DNA of 64,000 nt from Bacillota bacterium (GTDB taxonomy: Bacteria > Bacillota > Dehalobacteriia > UBA4068 > UBA4997). The notes under the pieces were generated by a model. The model made no database searches, was not told where the DNA came from, and saw nothing but the letters and a program-made list of their open reading frames with translations. The position numbers and the translations under genes are program-made. The stretch lies in contig JAFQHN010000002.1 of assembly GCA_017397935.1 (NCBI GenBank), positions 1 through 64,000 of the forward strand, read 5' to 3'. This document shows positions 15,886 to 46,641 of the stretch, one piece after another (position 1 is the first letter of the stretch; every line of letters begins with the position of its first letter).

Positions 15886-16887
15886 TTAATCCTGCTGCGG
15901 GCCGTTGGGATAATTAAGCGGATGCTCGCGGCGGAAGTCGATCTCGGTATGGCGCAGATACATGGTGCAGGCGCCGCTGGCCAACAGCTTGCCGTCAGCG
16001 TCCCAAAGATCGCCGTCACACACGCTGAAATGTTCACCGCGGGTGCGCTCCCTGCCCTCTCCGAACAAGCCGCCGCTAACCTGGGTATCGAAGAAGCTGA
16101 TGCTCATTTGAGCAGTAACGCTGAATTCACCGCCGGAAAGTGAGGATTTGCCGATCATCGGGTCCATAACCACGGCCAGCCAGGCAGGCTCCAAGCGGCC
16201 GTAAGCATCAAAATAACGGGGCAGCAGGGGCGTCAGCGCTGATTTGCACAAGCCGGGGCCGTACTCGGTGACGGTGATATTCTCGCAGTAATACAGATTC
16301 TCATTCTCGTTCATATAGGAGCATTTGGCCGGCCAGTCGGAATCCATAAAACAGGGGCGAAGCCCCTGAATATCAGCGTGCAGGTCAGCCTTTACCTTAG
16401 ACCAGACGGGCAGCGGATGCACCGGCTGCCAAGTGGCTGTGGGCGGCAGCAACAGGTGATAAGCAACCTCCTCATCGAGGATACTGAACATGGTAACGCC
16501 GGCCACCACCAGTTTACCCTCGGCGGTACGCATTTCCACATCATAAACGGCGATGTGGCTGTTGCGGTGCTTCTCGGTGGCAAAAATATCCACCAGACCG
16601 CCCTCCACGCCACGGTAATAGTTCATGGTTAGCTCGTTTATCTCAACCTCTTGCCCGTAAGAGCGCGCCGCCTTGCCGCCGGCGATAACCAGCATGGCCG
16701 AAAGCCAGCCGCCGTGGATACGCCCCTGCGAATTGAGATGATTGCTGCGAACATCCATTTGCAGGTGGGCAAAGCCGTTGGCATAATCCACCAGACGGAT
16801 GCCGTAAAGACGGGCGAAGTTGTCATATTCATTCATATAGCGGATTTTCTCGGGCCAATCCGCCTGCTTAAACGGGGTTTTGGGCAT
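15886..16887 (-). CDS. Tandem hot-dog (PaaI-type) thioesterase-like protein
   Basis: This is a 333-residue protein. ATG 16887 follows AGAGGTG; upstream frame extensions look like leader sequence. Two copies of one module are visible, each opening with an ADW/SDW..K..YMNE..N motif (residues about 8-22 and 182-197). The first has the hot-dog thioesterase signature LNSQGRIHGGWLSAM. The second has LEPAWLAVV in that place, so the catalytic HGG is lost. Members hydrolyse acyl-CoA thioesters. A single-module paralogue sharing the same opening motif is encoded at 46132-46641. The second half may serve dimer-like pairing or binding only. The substrate is unknown. Confidence 0.8.
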   Translation of the reverse strand: MPKTPFKQADWPEKIRYMNEYDNFARLYGIRLVDYANGFAHLQMDVRSNHLNSQGRIHGGWLSAMLVIAGGKAARSYGQEVEINELTMNYYRGVEGGLVDIFATEKHRNSHIAVYDVEMRTAEGKLVVAGVTMFSILDEEVAYHLLLPPTATWQPVHPLPVWSKVKADLHADIQGLRPCFMDSDWPAKCSYMNENENLYYCENITVTEYGPGLCKSALTPLLPRYFDAYGRLEPAWLAVVMDPMIGKSSLSGGEFSVTAQMSISFFDTQVSGGLFGEGRERTRGEHFSVCDGDLWDADGKLLASGACTMYLRHTEIDFRREHPLNYPNGPQQD

Positions 16888-16973
16888 AAAACACACCTCT
16901 TGTCTGCATACTACCTTTATTATAACAATAACCGCCAGTTTCGCCAAGAGGTTTACATAAATTTTGGGCAAGC

Positions 16974-40436: not shown

Positions 40437-41600
40437 TTATTCCTGCCTGATTGCCGCCGAAACATAAGAACGCACGGCACAAACCTCGCCGTTTTGCAGA
40501 TAAACACGGGGCAGGCGGGCCGATGCCGAGGTACGGCGCATGGGGGCCTCCACCACATCACCAACGGCAAGCGGCAAATCGCCGATATCCACCATCAGGC
40601 TTTGCATCGCCACACGGCCCAGCACCGCAAGCGGCTTTCCTTGATAATACAGGCAGCGCTGATACCGCCCCAGCAGCAGCTTGCCGACATTACGGCTCAT
40701 GGTCTGCACGCTGTCCTTAACCGTCAGCGGGCGGGCAGCGGCCTGCACACCAAAGCCGTCACCGTAGCCAAACGGCACCACGGCGATCCGCATATTCCGG
40801 GGGGCGCAAAACTCACGGCCATAACCCACCGTCTCGCCCTTCTTCAAATCCCGCACCGCCACAATACGGGCCTTGGCACGGAAAGGCTCTGCCAGAGCAA
40901 CACCCAGGCTTTTGGCCATACCCAGCTGGCCATACAGCACCGAACCCAGCCGCACTGCATCAAAACGGGCCTGAGGAAAGCGCAGCGCCCCGGCAGAATT
41001 GGCCAGATGAAAGCAAACACCCTCAAAGCCGGCCTGCAAAATCTGCTGCCGCTGCCGTTCAAACTCGGCAATCTGGTGTTCTGCAAAAGTTTTATCCTGC
41101 TCCAACGCCGTGGCCAGATGTGAATATGCACCCGTTAAATGCAGGTTATCCTGCTGCTTGAAGGCCGCCAGCAAATCCGCCAGCTGCTCGGTATCCACAC
41201 CCAGGCGGTTCATACCGGTGTTCAGCTTGATGTGGCAGTTAAGCGGCTGCCCCACAGCGGCCAGCGTTTGCAGGGTAAATTGGCTGTCCACCGTAGCCGT
41301 CAGGTCATACTCGGCAAAGTAAGCGGCCTCTCCCGGCAGCGGCGGCAGAAAAACCAGCACCGGCGCCGAGATCCCGGCCTCACGCAGCTCCAACGCCTCA
41401 TACAGGGTGGTTACGGCCAGCATTTTGGCCCCGGCCTCCACAAAAGTTTTGGCACACTGCACCGCCCCAAAGCCATAGGCGTCGTTCTTCACCACCGCGA
41501 TAATATCGCCGCCAACCTTATCCTGCACAGCAGCAAAGTTGGCGGCAAGCTTGTCCAAATCAATTTCCAGCCAATGACACAGGCTGTTGATTTCGTTCAT
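40437..41600 (-). CDS. alr: Alanine racemase
   Basis: This is a 387-residue fold-type III pyridoxal-phosphate enzyme making D-alanine for peptidoglycan. ATG 41600 follows GGAAAG. The cofactor lysine is in AVVKNDAYGFG (about residue 38). IKLNTGMNRLGV, VGYGREFCAP (catalytic Tyr region) and VPFGYGDGF are intact. The position 55 nt after the FemAB-like gene fits cell-wall precursor metabolism. Confidence 0.95.
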   Translation of the reverse strand: MNEINSLCHWLEIDLDKLAANFAAVQDKVGGDIIAVVKNDAYGFGAVQCAKTFVEAGAKMLAVTTLYEALELREAGISAPVLVFLPPLPGEAAYFAEYDLTATVDSQFTLQTLAAVGQPLNCHIKLNTGMNRLGVDTEQLADLLAAFKQQDNLHLTGAYSHLATALEQDKTFAEHQIAEFERQRQQILQAGFEGVCFHLANSAGALRFPQARFDAVRLGSVLYGQLGMAKSLGVALAEPFRAKARIVAVRDLKKGETVGYGREFCAPRNMRIAVVPFGYGDGFGVQAAARPLTVKDSVQTMSRNVGKLLLGRYQRCLYYQGKPLAVLGRVAMQSLMVDIGDLPLAVGDVVEAPMRRTSASARLPRVYLQNGEVCAVRSYVSAAIRQE

Positions 41601-41655: not shown

Positions 41656-42768
41656 TTATTTGCCGCCTTTCAATTTCTTCTTCACAGCAATCAGGCGACG
41701 GATATTCTTCTGGTAAAGCGGTTCCAGGAAGTTATACAGATGATATTTGGCGGAGTTCAGGGGCAGGTCATACTCGCCGATAAACTCGGTATATTTGCCG
41801 CCAAAGCCTTTCTTAAACTTCACCAGGCCGTAGAGAGGATGGTCCTCGGCCACATGACCGGGCACACCTCGGAAGTCATACATGGTGCAGCCGTGCTGCT
41901 TGGCCCACTCGATCATCGTCCATTGGATGAGATAATTGGGCATCAAATTGCGGTGCTCGTTAGAGCTGGCACCGTAGATGTACCACGCCTTATCGCCCAT
42001 GCGGAAGGCCAATGTGCCGGCAATCGCCTCGCCGTTATAATAGGCCATAAACAACTCCGTCTGGCCCACCGGCTGCAAGCTGTCATAAAAACGCTCAAAG
42101 TAGCTGTACGGGCGGATGAGGAAGTTATCACGGGTGGCGGTTGTTGTCAAAATGCGGTAAAACTCCGGCAGATTTTCCCGGCCGGCGGCGCTGACGATCT
42201 CCACACCCTTTTTACCGGCCAGACGAATGTTATAACGGGTTTTCTGGTGGCAGGCGGCCAGCAGCTTCTCAATCTCCGGCTGAATATCCAGACGGAAAAC
42301 AAACCGCGGCTGCACGCCCTCAAAGCCCTCACCCTTGCCGGCCTGCACAAAACCGCTGGCTTTCAGCTGGCCGCGCCAAACCTCAGCCTCGGGGAAGTCA
42401 ATGTCAATATCAGGGTCTACCTTCCAATAAATAGCACCACGCTCTTTGGCCAGCGCCTTAACCGCACCCACCGTAGCCTGCCACAGGGCGGCATCGTCAA
42501 TATCCAGCACCGGGCCGCGGGGCGAATAAAAAATGTTGCCAAGGCCTGCGGGCAGTTTGCGCTGCAAGATAAGCGCTGCTGCACAAATTCGCCCGTCTTT
42601 CTCCACCACCAGGCGCAGCGGCTGCCAGGCAGGCTGCTTCACCATGCCCCATTCCCAGCTTTGCAGCACATGGCCCTTGGGGTGCGCCGCCACAAAAGCG
42701 TTAAAAATCCCGGCATTGTTTGCTTCGTCCGCCAGCAGACGATAGCTGTAATCGCCAATCATATTCAC
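41656..42768 (-). CDS. FemAB family peptidoglycan interpeptide-bridge aminoacyltransferase
   Basis: This is a protein of about 370 residues with two GNAT-like domains. The start is GTG 42768 or TTG 42774; AAAGGAG lies upstream of both, and no ATG has better spacing. Signature stretches are HVLQSWEWGMVK, YSPRGPVLDID, KTRYNIRLAGKKGV and a C-terminal YGLVKFKKGFGGKYTEFIGEYDL. FemX-like enzymes add the first bridge amino acid to lipid II from aminoacyl-tRNA. It precedes alr in the same direction. Which amino acid it uses is unknown. Confidence 0.9.
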   Translation of the reverse strand: MNMIGDYSYRLLADEANNAGIFNAFVAAHPKGHVLQSWEWGMVKQPAWQPLRLVVEKDGRICAAALILQRKLPAGLGNIFYSPRGPVLDIDDAALWQATVGAVKALAKERGAIYWKVDPDIDIDFPEAEVWRGQLKASGFVQAGKGEGFEGVQPRFVFRLDIQPEIEKLLAACHQKTRYNIRLAGKKGVEIVSAAGRENLPEFYRILTTTATRDNFLIRPYSYFERFYDSLQPVGQTELFMAYYNGEAIAGTLAFRMGDKAWYIYGASSNEHRNLMPNYLIQWTMIEWAKQHGCTMYDFRGVPGHVAEDHPLYGLVKFKKGFGGKYTEFIGEYDLPLNSAKYHLYNFLEPLYQKNIRRLIAVKKKLKGGK

Positions 42769-42849
42769 CGGCAAAATTCTCCTTTATTTCAACAAATCAA
42801 ACTATCAATCAAACTATCAACAGTTATAGATTACGCTTTGTGCGGCGGT

Positions 42850-44421
42850 TTATTCAGCACAAGTCTTAACAAAATCGCTGATCAGCGGATGCGGATACTC
42901 CGGACGGGACAAAAATTCCGGGTGATACTGGCAGCCCACAAACCATTTATGCTGCGGCAGCTCCACGATCTCCACAAAACCGGCCTCGGACGAGCGACCG
43001 GCAAACTTTAAGCCGGCAGCACGCAGAACCGCCTCGGATTCTTCCTTCAACACATAGCGGTGACGGTGGCGCTCCATGATCTCGCCCTTGCCGTAAACCG
43101 CTGCGGCCTTGCTGTCCAACGCCAGCTCCACCGCAAACAGGCCGCCTTCCAGAGTGCCGCCCTGCCGCGCCTGCCCACGGATGTTAAACAAAACATCGGG
43201 CTGGCCGCTTTCGGGCATATCAGCCTTGATCTGCGCCACATTACGGGCAAATTCCACCACGGCAGCGTGCATACCCATGCCCACCGCCAGCAGCGGGATA
43301 TTATTCTTACGGGCATAACCGGCCGTTAAGATCATGCCGTCGGTGCCGCGGAAGCCGAAGCCGTCGGGGATAACCAAACCGGCATAACCGGCCAATTTCT
43401 CGTCCACATTTTCGGCAGTTATCTCCTGCGCCGCAATCAGCTCGATCTCGGTATGCAGGCCGCAGTTAATGGCACAATGGCGCAGCGCCTCGGCCAGACT
43501 GATGTAAGCATCCGGGAGAGCGGTATATTTGCCCACCAGACCCAGACGCACGGTTTTATTCTCGGCCAGACTGCGCTGATAAAATTCTTCCCAATCGCTG
43601 ATATTGGCCTTGGCCTCGGGCAGATTTAACTTCTCGGCCACAATTTTATCCAGTCCCTGACGGTGCAGATTCAGCGGCAGCTCATAAACATTATCGGTAT
43701 AAAGCTGCTGGATAACCGCCTCACGGTCAATATCACAGAACAGCGAAACCTTGTTGACAGCACTCTCATCCAGCTCAACATCGCTGCGGCAGATAATAAC
43801 GTCCGGCTGAATACCCAGGCTGCGCAGAGTTTTTACGCTGTGCTGTACCGGCTTGGTTTTGATCTCACCGGCCAGATTAAGATAAGGCACCAGCGCCACA
43901 TGGATGAACAGCGTGTTATGGCGGCCCAAATCACGGCGCATCTGACGAATTGCCTCAATAAAGGCCAGCGATTCAATATCACCCACCACGCCGCCAATCT
44001 CCACGATGATCACATCAAAATCATGGGCAGCCAAATCATTGGTGATGGTGCGTTTGATCTCATTGGTAATGTGCGGAATAACCTGTACGGTATTGCCGCC
44101 GAAGTCGCCGGCGCGTTCTCTGTCCAAAATACGGCGGTAAATGCGACCCAGAGTGGTGCAGGCATTACCCGAGAAGCTGACATTCATAAAACGCTCATAA
44201 TGGCCCATGGCCAGGTCGGTTTCCATACCGTCGTTGGTCACAAAAACCTCGCCGTGCTGATAAGGATTCATCAGCCCGTTATCGGTATTAAAATAAGTAT
44301 CCAGGCGCTGTACGCCAACCTTTAAGCCGCGGCTCTTCAACAGCTTGCCCAAAGAGGCAGCAGTTAAACCCTTGCCCACCGAAGAAACTACACCACCGGT
44401 GAAAAATATATATTTCGTCAT
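42850..44421 (-). CDS. pyrG: CTP synthase homologue lacking the glutaminase cysteine
   Basis: This is a 523-residue protein with full CTP synthase layout. ATG 44421 follows GAGGAT. The synthase domain has GGVVSSVGKGLTAASLG, GEVFVTNDGMETDLAMGHYERF in normal order, and IVEIGGVVGDIESL. In the glutamine amidotransferase domain the usual GxCLGMQ reads VGMGMH, with Gly381 (codon GGC at 43279-43281) in place of the nucleophile Cys. The glutamine-binding GGTMRLG is GGTLEGG. The YHPE of the triad remains. By family knowledge such a protein could only use free ammonia. Several normally fixed positions in the synthase part also differ (DTYFNTDNG). It may be a divergent paralogue. It lies next to argS. 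Confidence 0.9.
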   Translation of the reverse strand: MTKYIFFTGGVVSSVGKGLTAASLGKLLKSRGLKVGVQRLDTYFNTDNGLMNPYQHGEVFVTNDGMETDLAMGHYERFMNVSFSGNACTTLGRIYRRILDRERAGDFGGNTVQVIPHITNEIKRTITNDLAAHDFDVIIVEIGGVVGDIESLAFIEAIRQMRRDLGRHNTLFIHVALVPYLNLAGEIKTKPVQHSVKTLRSLGIQPDVIICRSDVELDESAVNKVSLFCDIDREAVIQQLYTDNVYELPLNLHRQGLDKIVAEKLNLPEAKANISDWEEFYQRSLAENKTVRLGLVGKYTALPDAYISLAEALRHCAINCGLHTEIELIAAQEITAENVDEKLAGYAGLVIPDGFGFRGTDGMILTAGYARKNNIPLLAVGMGMHAAVVEFARNVAQIKADMPESGQPDVLFNIRGQARQGGTLEGGLFAVELALDSKAAAVYGKGEIMERHRHRYVLKEESEAVLRAAGLKFAGRSSEAGFVEIVELPQHKWFVGCQYHPEFLSRPEYPHPLISDFVKTCAE

Positions 44422-44446
44422 ATTCTCATCCTCTTTGCTCATAAAA

Positions 44447-46135
44447 TTACATTTTCAGCGGGGCTGATACACCCAGCAATCCCAAGCACTTGGCTACCGC
44501 ACCGGCAGTTACCCTGCACAGCCAAAGTCTGGCCATCTGAACATCAGCATCCACACCCAGCACACGGCAGTTGCCGTAAAAACTGTGGAACAAACCGGAA
44601 AGCTCCATAACATAAGCCGCAATTTTATGCGGTGCCTCCTGCACAGCGGCCGCCACGATTTCATCAGGCAGCTCCAACAGGCGGCGCAGCAGATCCCGCT
44701 CGCTCTCCTCCTTCAACAGGCTGAAATCAACCTTATCGGGCGCCGCAAGTTCAATACCCTGCTCGGCAGCCTGTGCGATAATGCTGTTGATGCGGGCATG
44801 AGCATACTGCACATAATAAACGGGGTTATCCATAGACTGGCTCTTGGCCAAATCCAAATCAAAATCCATCTGGCTGTCAGCCGAGCGCATTACAAAGAAG
44901 AAACGGGCAGCATCCTTGCCAACCTCCTCCACCAGCTCCTCCAAAGTCACATAAGTACCGGCACGCTTAGACATTCTCATGATCTCGCCGCCGGAGAACA
45001 AACGCACCAGCTGCATCAAAATTACTTCCAGATTCTCCGAGGGGTAACCCAAAGCACCCACAGCGGCCTTCAAACGGGCCACATGGCCGTGGTGATCCGC
45101 CCCCCAAATGTTGATAAGACGCTCATAACCGCGCTCAAACTTATTCTTGTGATAAGCAATATCGGCGGTGTAATAGGTAGGGATGCCGTTGGCACGCACC
45201 AGCACCTCGGGCTTCTCGCAGCCGTATTTGTCAGCCGCAAACCACAAAGCACCCTCCTGCTCGATCAAAGCATTATCGGCCCCCAGCTCTTCAACCACTT
45301 TTTTAACATCACCGGCATCATGCAGCGTCTGCTCGCTGAACCAAACATCATAATGCACACCGTAATGCTCCAATGCGGTGCGGATAGCGCTGATTTTCTT
45401 CTCCAACGCATAGCGTGTCAAAATCTCGCGGCGCAGATTCTCCTTCACCGTCAGCAGCTTATCACCCTCCACGGCAATATATTCAGCCACGGTGCGGGTA
45501 ATATCCTCGCCATGATAGCCGTCCTCCGGGAAGGGAACATCCTGGCCCAACTGCTGCAAATAACGGGCTTCCAGAGAAAGACCGAAGTTCTCAATCTGCT
45601 TACCGGCGTCATTGATGTAATACTCCCGGCCCACCTGATAACCGGCGGCCTGCATAATATTGGCCAGACTGTCACCGATGGCAGCACCGCGAGCGTTACC
45701 CAGGTGCAGCTCTCCCGTGGGGTTGGCCGATACAAACTCCACATTGACCTTATGGCCGGCGCCAAATTCACTCTCGCCGAATTTTTCACCGCGGGCAGCA
45801 GCATCAGCCAAACCGTCGGTCAGCCAGTTAGCCTTCATGCGGAAGTTGATAAAACCGGCACCGGCAATCTCCACGCCCTCCACCCAGGTGGCAGGTTCAT
45901 CCTTATACAAATGCACCAAAATCGCCTCGGCAATCTTTCTGGGCGGCATCTTGGCCTGACGAGCCAGCAGCATGGCCAGGTTGGCGGCAAAATCGCCGTG
46001 CGCCTTCTCACGCGGGCGCTCAATCACAAAATCCGGCAGCTCCTCAAAATTAAGCTCTCCGGCCTCTTTGGCAGCGGTGGCCGCCGCCAGCAAATCTTTT
46101 TTCAGTTCCCAACGAGTTTCTTCCAACCAGTTCAT
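44447..46135 (-). CDS. argS: Arginyl-tRNA synthetase
   Basis: This is a 562-residue class I synthetase charging tRNA-Arg. The N-terminal additional domain (HGDFAANLAMLLAR), the HIGH-like FVSANPTGELHLGNARGAA split by normal residues, the KMSKS-like MRMSKRAGTYV (about 387) and the C-terminal helical anticodon domain are all present. The start codon overlaps the stop of the thioesterase gene by four bases (46132-46135), so translation is probably coupled. Confidence 0.96.
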   Translation of the reverse strand: MNWLEETRWELKKDLLAAATAAKEAGELNFEELPDFVIERPREKAHGDFAANLAMLLARQAKMPPRKIAEAILVHLYKDEPATWVEGVEIAGAGFINFRMKANWLTDGLADAAARGEKFGESEFGAGHKVNVEFVSANPTGELHLGNARGAAIGDSLANIMQAAGYQVGREYYINDAGKQIENFGLSLEARYLQQLGQDVPFPEDGYHGEDITRTVAEYIAVEGDKLLTVKENLRREILTRYALEKKISAIRTALEHYGVHYDVWFSEQTLHDAGDVKKVVEELGADNALIEQEGALWFAADKYGCEKPEVLVRANGIPTYYTADIAYHKNKFERGYERLINIWGADHHGHVARLKAAVGALGYPSENLEVILMQLVRLFSGGEIMRMSKRAGTYVTLEELVEEVGKDAARFFFVMRSADSQMDFDLDLAKSQSMDNPVYYVQYAHARINSIIAQAAEQGIELAAPDKVDFSLLKEESERDLLRRLLELPDEIVAAAVQEAPHKIAAYVMELSGLFHSFYGNCRVLGVDADVQMARLWLCRVTAGAVAKCLGLLGVSAPLKM

Positions 46136-46641
46136 CTACTGATACCCTCCTGTTCGTCCTGCGCAAAGCCAAGCTCGGCAAGGTTCCGCTTCTCTCGCGG
46201 AAAATCAATCTCTTTATCCTGAATATACAATGTAACCGTGCCGGAAACCACCAGCTCATCGGCATCATCTCTCACATCCACGGTATAAATGCCCAAATGT
46301 CGGCCGCGATTTTTCTCTTTGGCCACAGCGTGCAAGGTGCCGCCGCTGCAAGTATTGTGGTAATTCATCGAAAGCTGTTCGGGCGTCACAAAAAACCCGC
46401 GTGACATCGCCGCCTTGCCGGCCGCCTGACCAATCAGAGCCGCCAACCAGCCGCCATGCACATTACCCTGAGAGTTAAGATGGCGTTTTAACAGCGGCAT
46501 GATCATGTGAGCATAACCCAAACCGTACTCCACCAGCTCAATGCCATCGGAGTGATAAGAGTTTTCATTCTCATTGATGTATTCGATTTTCGTCGCCCAG
46601 TCTGCATCCTTAAAAGACGGGCGCAGCGCTGAATCTGCCAT
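46132..46641 (-). CDS. PaaI-type hot-dog thioesterase
   Basis: This is a 169-residue single hot-dog protein. AAGGAGGGG precedes ATG 46641. HLNSQGNVHGGWLAALIGQAAGK is the thioesterase motif, in two parts around the HGG. The opening DADWATKIEYINENEN is shared with both halves of the protein at 15886-16887, so they are paralogues. It probably hydrolyses acyl- or aryl-CoA esters; the substrate is unknown. Its overlap with argS is unusual in content and may reflect only compact gene order. Confidence 0.85.
   Translation of the reverse strand: MADSALRPSFKDADWATKIEYINENENSYHSDGIELVEYGLGYAHMIMPLLKRHLNSQGNVHGGWLAALIGQAAGKAAMSRGFFVTPEQLSMNYHNTCSGGTLHAVAKEKNRGRHLGIYTVDVRDDADELVVSGTVTLYIQDKEIDFPREKRNLAELGFAQDEQEGISR

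Follow-up and report, generated by a model that had tools for sequence, protein, structure and literature searches.

What function is left to a CTP synthase homologue whose glutaminase nucleophile has been replaced by glycine? CTP synthase is a nearly universal enzyme under the control of four nucleotides and of polymerisation. The gene at issue, here called pyrGd, lies in the window, i.e., the whole 64,000-nucleotide stretch of contig JAFQHN010000002.1 that was analysed. An initial annotation, made from the DNA sequence by itself, had proposed that its product either depends on free ammonia or has a structural or regulatory role.

Sequence and predicted fold of the altered copy

pyrGd belongs to the CTP synthase (PyrG) family by descent. 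As annotated initially, it is an intact, full-length ORF (Table 1), which starts with an ATG at 44421 on the minus strand and clears the PyrG cut-offs of NCBIfam by far (646 and 682 bits). It also matches Pfam CTP_synth_N and GATase, with the combined CTP_synth_N and class I GATase architecture from end to end and above the curated cut-offs. The AlphaFold model of the protein had a pLDDT of 87, with the lowest values in loops ~48-56 and 415-422, and its top Foldseek match was E. coli CTP synthase (TM 0.95). The CTP synthase fold is hence retained in the model, so that pyrGd would be compatible with tetramer formation.

Residues were aligned to E. coli CTP synthase 1s1m, and E. coli numbering is used in the following. 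The glycine at the nucleophile position, the reading GGTLEGG instead of GGTMRLG and the remaining His-Pro-Glu were all found as described in the initial annotation. It had also taken the arginine of GGTMRLG for a glutamine contact; however, mutagenesis of the L. lactis enzyme (R433M) makes R440 a residue of GTP activation and coupling (PMC9138612, Table 1 therein). Its remark on unusual synthase-domain positions was correct, but overlooked two catalytic ones among them, K40R and D72A. In Drosophila CTP synthase, the equivalents of K40 and D72 touch the transferred phosphate directly or via water, and K38A, corresponding to E. coli K40, strongly cuts the activity (PMC8325340).

Throughout the genus, the Cys-His-Glu triad of the glutaminase is incomplete, with C379G in all nine genomes and H515 and E517 kept. 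The GTP activation and coupling loop GGT-M/L-R-LG is altered as well (R440E/V, L441 replaced). In the synthase catalytic set K18, E140 and G143 are kept, and K40R and D72A occur in all copies. Among the genus members compared, the UTP-binding residues S14, D42, H57, D147, E149, K187, T188 and K189 are kept; their roles were taken from PMC8325340, with Asp42 as the uracil contact.

Table 1. Positions of pyrGd, its diagnostic residues and neighbouring genes in the window
Feature	Position	Strand	Remark
pyrGd, full-length CTP synthase paralogue	42850..44421	-	uninterrupted 523-aa translation
Shine-Dalgarno-like AGAGGA	44429..44434	-	7 nt before pyrGd ATG; read from sequence
Gly381 (GGC, codon 43281-43279) in place of Cys379, the glutaminase nucleophile	43279..43281	-	alignment
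Glu425 in place of Arg440, which in GGTMRLG serves GTP coupling	43147..43149	-	alignment
His500-Pro501-Glu502, what is left of the glutaminase triad	42916..42924	-	
Arg39 in place of catalytic Lys40	44305..44307	-	R in 9/9 genus genomes
Ala71 in place of catalytic Asp72	44209..44211	-	A in 9/9 genus genomes
K188-T189-K190 (E. coli K187/T188/K189), UTP triphosphate-binding, kept	43852..43860	-	function: PMC8325340
argS	44447..46135	-	upstream neighbour, conserved across class
femAB-like gene	41656..42774	-	downstream neighbour, conserved across class
alr (alanine racemase)	40437..41600	-	further conserved neighbour

Conservation in the genus and a second, canonical pyrG

Orthologues of pyrGd with 71-86% identity were found in all eight other genomes of the genus, which, like those of the family relatives, are draft assemblies. 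The orthologue in G005 is split over two contigs; eight copies, including that of the window, are full-length. All nine copies contain GMGMH, RLDTYFN and ETDLA and carry C379G, K40R and D72A, and R440 and E403 are lost in all eight full-length copies. A sequencing or assembly error, against which the initial annotation had already argued, is rejected because identical changes occur in nine genomes, including the Cys-to-Gly exchange in eight separately assembled orthologues. From 46 canonical PyrGs we defined 130 near-invariant positions. Twelve of these (I20, K40, P43, P49, T51, D72, G351, C379, E403, R440, L441 and N474) are lost in every full-length altered copy, and the other 118 are not lost clade-wide.

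Despite its catalytic losses, the altered copy is under purifying selection. Among genus pairs, the three with the least divergence gave dN/dS values of 0.016, 0.052 and 0.068, and the others, whose dS approaches or exceeds saturation, gave 0.07-0.16. In the synthase half of pyrGd, dN is close to that of pyrG2, the canonical copy described below; its glutaminase half changes at about twice the rate of the corresponding half of pyrG2, which indicates some relaxation there. Low dN/dS and intact ORFs led us to reject a pseudogene. The same glycine in the genus homologues, together with purifying selection, thus speaks for a real subfamily, as had been envisaged: the codon reads GGC and not TGC, close relatives are without the cysteine, and pyrGd shows no decay.

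The window's genome (1.59 Mb, 28 contigs, 99.4% complete) also contains the second, canonical pyrG for which the initial annotation had suggested to look, so that pyrGd is not its only pyrG. This copy, pyrG2, lies on contig 25 and has GICLGMQ, GGTLRLG, HPE, K40 and D72 all intact. Identity between the pyrGd and pyrG2 proteins is no more than 47%, and the two genes occupy separate contigs, which counts against a complex of the two. pyrG2 is followed by the GMP synthase gene guaA, as it is in those genus genomes in which the contig is long enough and in families f4 and f5. It is present in the window's genome (G000) and in seven of the eight others. In G006 both pyrG2 and the adjacent guaA are missing; a real pyrG loss was therefore not accepted, and the missing locus is probably an assembly gap.

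The guaA right after pyrG2 (L119:6650-7669, contig 25) encodes 340 aa that comprise the ATP-PPase part only, without the N-terminal glutaminase domain. This short version was seen in part also in G003 (87% identity), and f4 genomes have one of 447 aa with only part of the GATase domain (about 70% identical). The short gene beside pyrG2 thus represents a second amidotransferase hit by glutaminase loss in the same organisms. Another, full-length guaA (529 aa) is found on contig 24 of the window's genome.

History of the argS-linked locus

A gap of 25 bases separates pyrGd from argS upstream of it, and one of 75 bases from the femAB-like gene downstream; all three genes have the same direction. 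The class relatives G037 and L036 have the same order argS-pyrG-femAB-alr, and there pyrG is canonical. Within the window's order, the nucleophile is absent in every argS-linked pyrG examined: its position is occupied by Gly in the window's genus, in G009 and in G013 (f5), and by Asn in f4. In f4 and f5, the triad His is replaced by Leu as well. K40 and D72 are kept in G009, f4 and f5 and altered only in the window's genus. Directly before argS, a hotdog/thioesterase-like protein (window 46132-46641) is conserved in the genus; a related protein elsewhere in the window (15886-16971) seems to consist of two such domains fused in tandem.

The 13 argS-linked sequences without the cysteine, which come from three families, form one clade (support 100/98). 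The same 13-row clade was obtained, with weaker support (87/87), in a tree of the synthase domain from which the glutaminase columns had been removed, which speaks against a long-branch artefact behind the clade. A single argS-linked clade that includes the active class relatives gave a p-AU of 0.46. The pyrG2 sequences sit elsewhere in the tree, away from the 13-sequence clade, and the stem branch of the genus clade is long, with about 1.0 change per column. The simplest history would be one cysteine loss at the ancestral argS-linked locus. Loss of the glutaminase apparently came before the change in the synthase site, which took place in the window's genus. The likely order of events would thus be presence of pyrG2 by gain or duplication, glutaminase loss at the argS locus and a later synthase change in one genus, where we infer that the arrival of pyrG2 preceded the glutaminase loss.

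Cys-to-Gly PyrGs with an intact synthase site also arose independently in G028 (f2; C379G, H515N) and in G379, from another family of the phylum (C379G). In both (L022 and L222, respectively) this copy is the only pyrG found, each genome being incomplete, and we consider the two proteins as candidate ammonia-only CTP synthases. In a pattern scan for the glycine motif, 19 of 398 genomes of the phylum gave matches, and outside the genus only that of G379 was a PyrG; the pattern is degenerate and would overlook certain codon choices as well as other residues. The f2 genome G022 has as its only PyrG-like protein found a 548 aa full-length ORF (L125 / L144, about 920-2564; 31% identity), which has lost 70 of the 130 near-invariant positions, including K18R in the P-loop, K40R, D72V, E140D and C379G. 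Degeneration has gone much further in this CTP synthase homologue. The drafts G021, G025, G027, G029 and G040, which are 80-94% complete and belong to the same order or class, yielded no CTP synthase.

Function of pyrGd and its relation to known systems

That pyrGd has lost glutamine-dependent activity, as proposed initially, is close to certain, because the absence of the cysteine is conserved across a clade. Dependence on free ammonia is less likely in the window's genus: as K40 and D72 are replaced in all nine genomes, ammonia-dependent activity of pyrGd is doubtful. It suits the related families better, in which the synthase site is intact, and it is plausible there because E. coli CTP synthase with its glutaminase blocked by DON still uses NH4+ (PMC11211670), and a G352P variant is nearly fully active with NH4Cl (PMC9138612). 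Residual activity with ammonia is possible also for pyrGd since K40R is a conservative exchange, K18 and E140 have stayed in place, and we found no paper that tested the K40R/D72A combination.

A kept UTP/CTP site next to altered phosphoryl-transfer residues, in a genome with a fully equipped paralogue, suggests a nucleotide-binding regulatory or structural partner. We therefore give an even chance to the reading that pyrGd in the window's genus is a nucleotide-binding pseudoenzyme with such a partner role, probably for PyrG2. The structural or regulatory role of the initial annotation is likewise backed by the clade-wide cysteine loss, the canonical second copy and purifying selection. The sequences show that the pyrG at the ancestral argS-linked locus has lost its glutaminase nucleophile and that most of these genomes contain a canonical guaA-linked pyrG; K40R and D72A followed in the window's genus, where purifying selection has kept the P-loop, the UTP/CTP residues, the ammonia gate and the fold. 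The product would make no CTP and presumably would still fold, bind UTP/CTP and oligomerise. It could join PyrG2 in mixed assemblies, or else assemble with itself into tetramers or filaments, and could tune CTP production or sense CTP/UTP. Co-assembly is conceivable because three subunits of the tetramer together form the CTP synthase active site (PMC5405848). Moreover, human CTPS2 directly associates with CTPS1 and lowers the activity of the CTPS1 complex (PMC12442307), so that the proposed mechanism has precedent in kind. The more specific version, in which a pseudoenzyme with both sites inactive serves as the dedicated CTP/UTP-sensing regulatory subunit of PyrG2, and in which the steps from glutaminase to synthase loss are visible in living relatives, is more tentative, and we would sooner doubt than adopt it.

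Two alternatives appear unlikely to a similar degree, and less probable still than that version. An ammonia-only CTP synthase, whose synthase half makes CTP from free ammonia beside a dead glutaminase half, would suit gut habitats, where free ammonia should be plentiful (goat cecum and rabbit samples occur among the relatives). It agrees with the ammonia use of the DON-treated and G352P enzymes and with human CPS1, for which the same loss is known (PMC4655335). Moreover, the Cys-less proteins of G009, f4 and f5 and the independent ones of G028 and G379 keep K18, K40, D72 and E140, and no other pyrG was found in G009, G028 and G379. In the window's genus, however, both K40 and D72 are replaced and the canonical PyrG2 is present; the sole gain over PyrG2 would be glutamine independence, yet PyrG2 should itself accept ammonia. 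Alternatively, pyrGd might be a neofunctionalised amidoligase or kinase that has altered its phosphoryl-transfer chemistry and acts on another nucleotide or substrate. The long genus stem branch and the concerted active-site substitutions (K40R, P43T, P49, T51, D72A), mostly conserved afterwards, could be read in this way, but every UTP-binding residue checked is kept, including the uracil-contacting Asp42, and the neighbours argS, femAB and alr are ancestral and suggest no new pathway.

We regard two further explanations as highly improbable. Loss of catalytic residues in the presence of a functional copy and the faster evolution of the glutaminase half could be expected of a decaying, functionless relic of a duplicated gene. 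This is already contradicted by the low dN/dS, which includes the unsaturated pairs, and the ORF is intact in all eight genomes with a complete copy, with a highly conserved synthase half, and of the 130 conserved positions 118 have escaped clade-wide loss. Equally remote is a structural role that needs neither CTP synthesis nor PyrG2, as a filament or cell-shape protein in the manner reported for the CtpS filaments of other bacteria. Bacterial CTP synthase polymerises, its assembly is separable from activity (PMC4126345, PMC5405848), and the fold of pyrGd is retained in the prediction; femAB and alr, however, flank also the canonical argS-linked pyrG of G037 and thus are uninformative on a new role.

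If pyrGd is a pseudoenzyme partner, it would be a natural, selectively maintained CTP synthase with disabled catalysis, with relatives at an intermediate stage in which the glutaminase is off and the synthase residues are intact. In the open-access literature searched, no bacterial CTP synthase pseudoenzyme or inactive paralogue has been published. As a ready series, pyrGd and its relatives would allow catalysis to be studied apart from nucleotide sensing and assembly, and they provide material for asking how a metabolic enzyme becomes a regulator. For the whole clade, the automatic label "glutamine hydrolyzing CTP synthase", assigned over the cut-off, is wrong.

With canonical PyrG (E. coli 1S1M; EC 6.3.4.2) pyrGd shares the two-domain full length, the fold, the P-loop, the UTP/CTP-binding residues, the ammonia gate and the HPE of the triad. 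In contrast, it is without the glutaminase cysteine, has K40R and D72A in the synthase site, and features an altered GTP-coupling loop and a shortened loop before GGTMRLG. In human CPS1, the ammonia-specific carbamoyl phosphate synthetase, a class I glutaminase domain is likewise kept with its Cys replaced (Ser294; PMC4655335), although CPS1 is a different enzyme and its synthetase half is fully active, whereas the synthase half of pyrGd is altered. The hetero-oligomeric NAD-dependent isocitrate dehydrogenase has regulatory beside catalytic subunits (PMC5282582), an analogy only, from an unrelated family. Human CTPS1 and CTPS2 are, like pyrGd and PyrG2, two CTP synthase paralogues in a single cell, and CTPS2 modulates CTPS1 by association (PMC12442307), as pyrGd might do with PyrG2; both human isoforms, however, are catalytically active.
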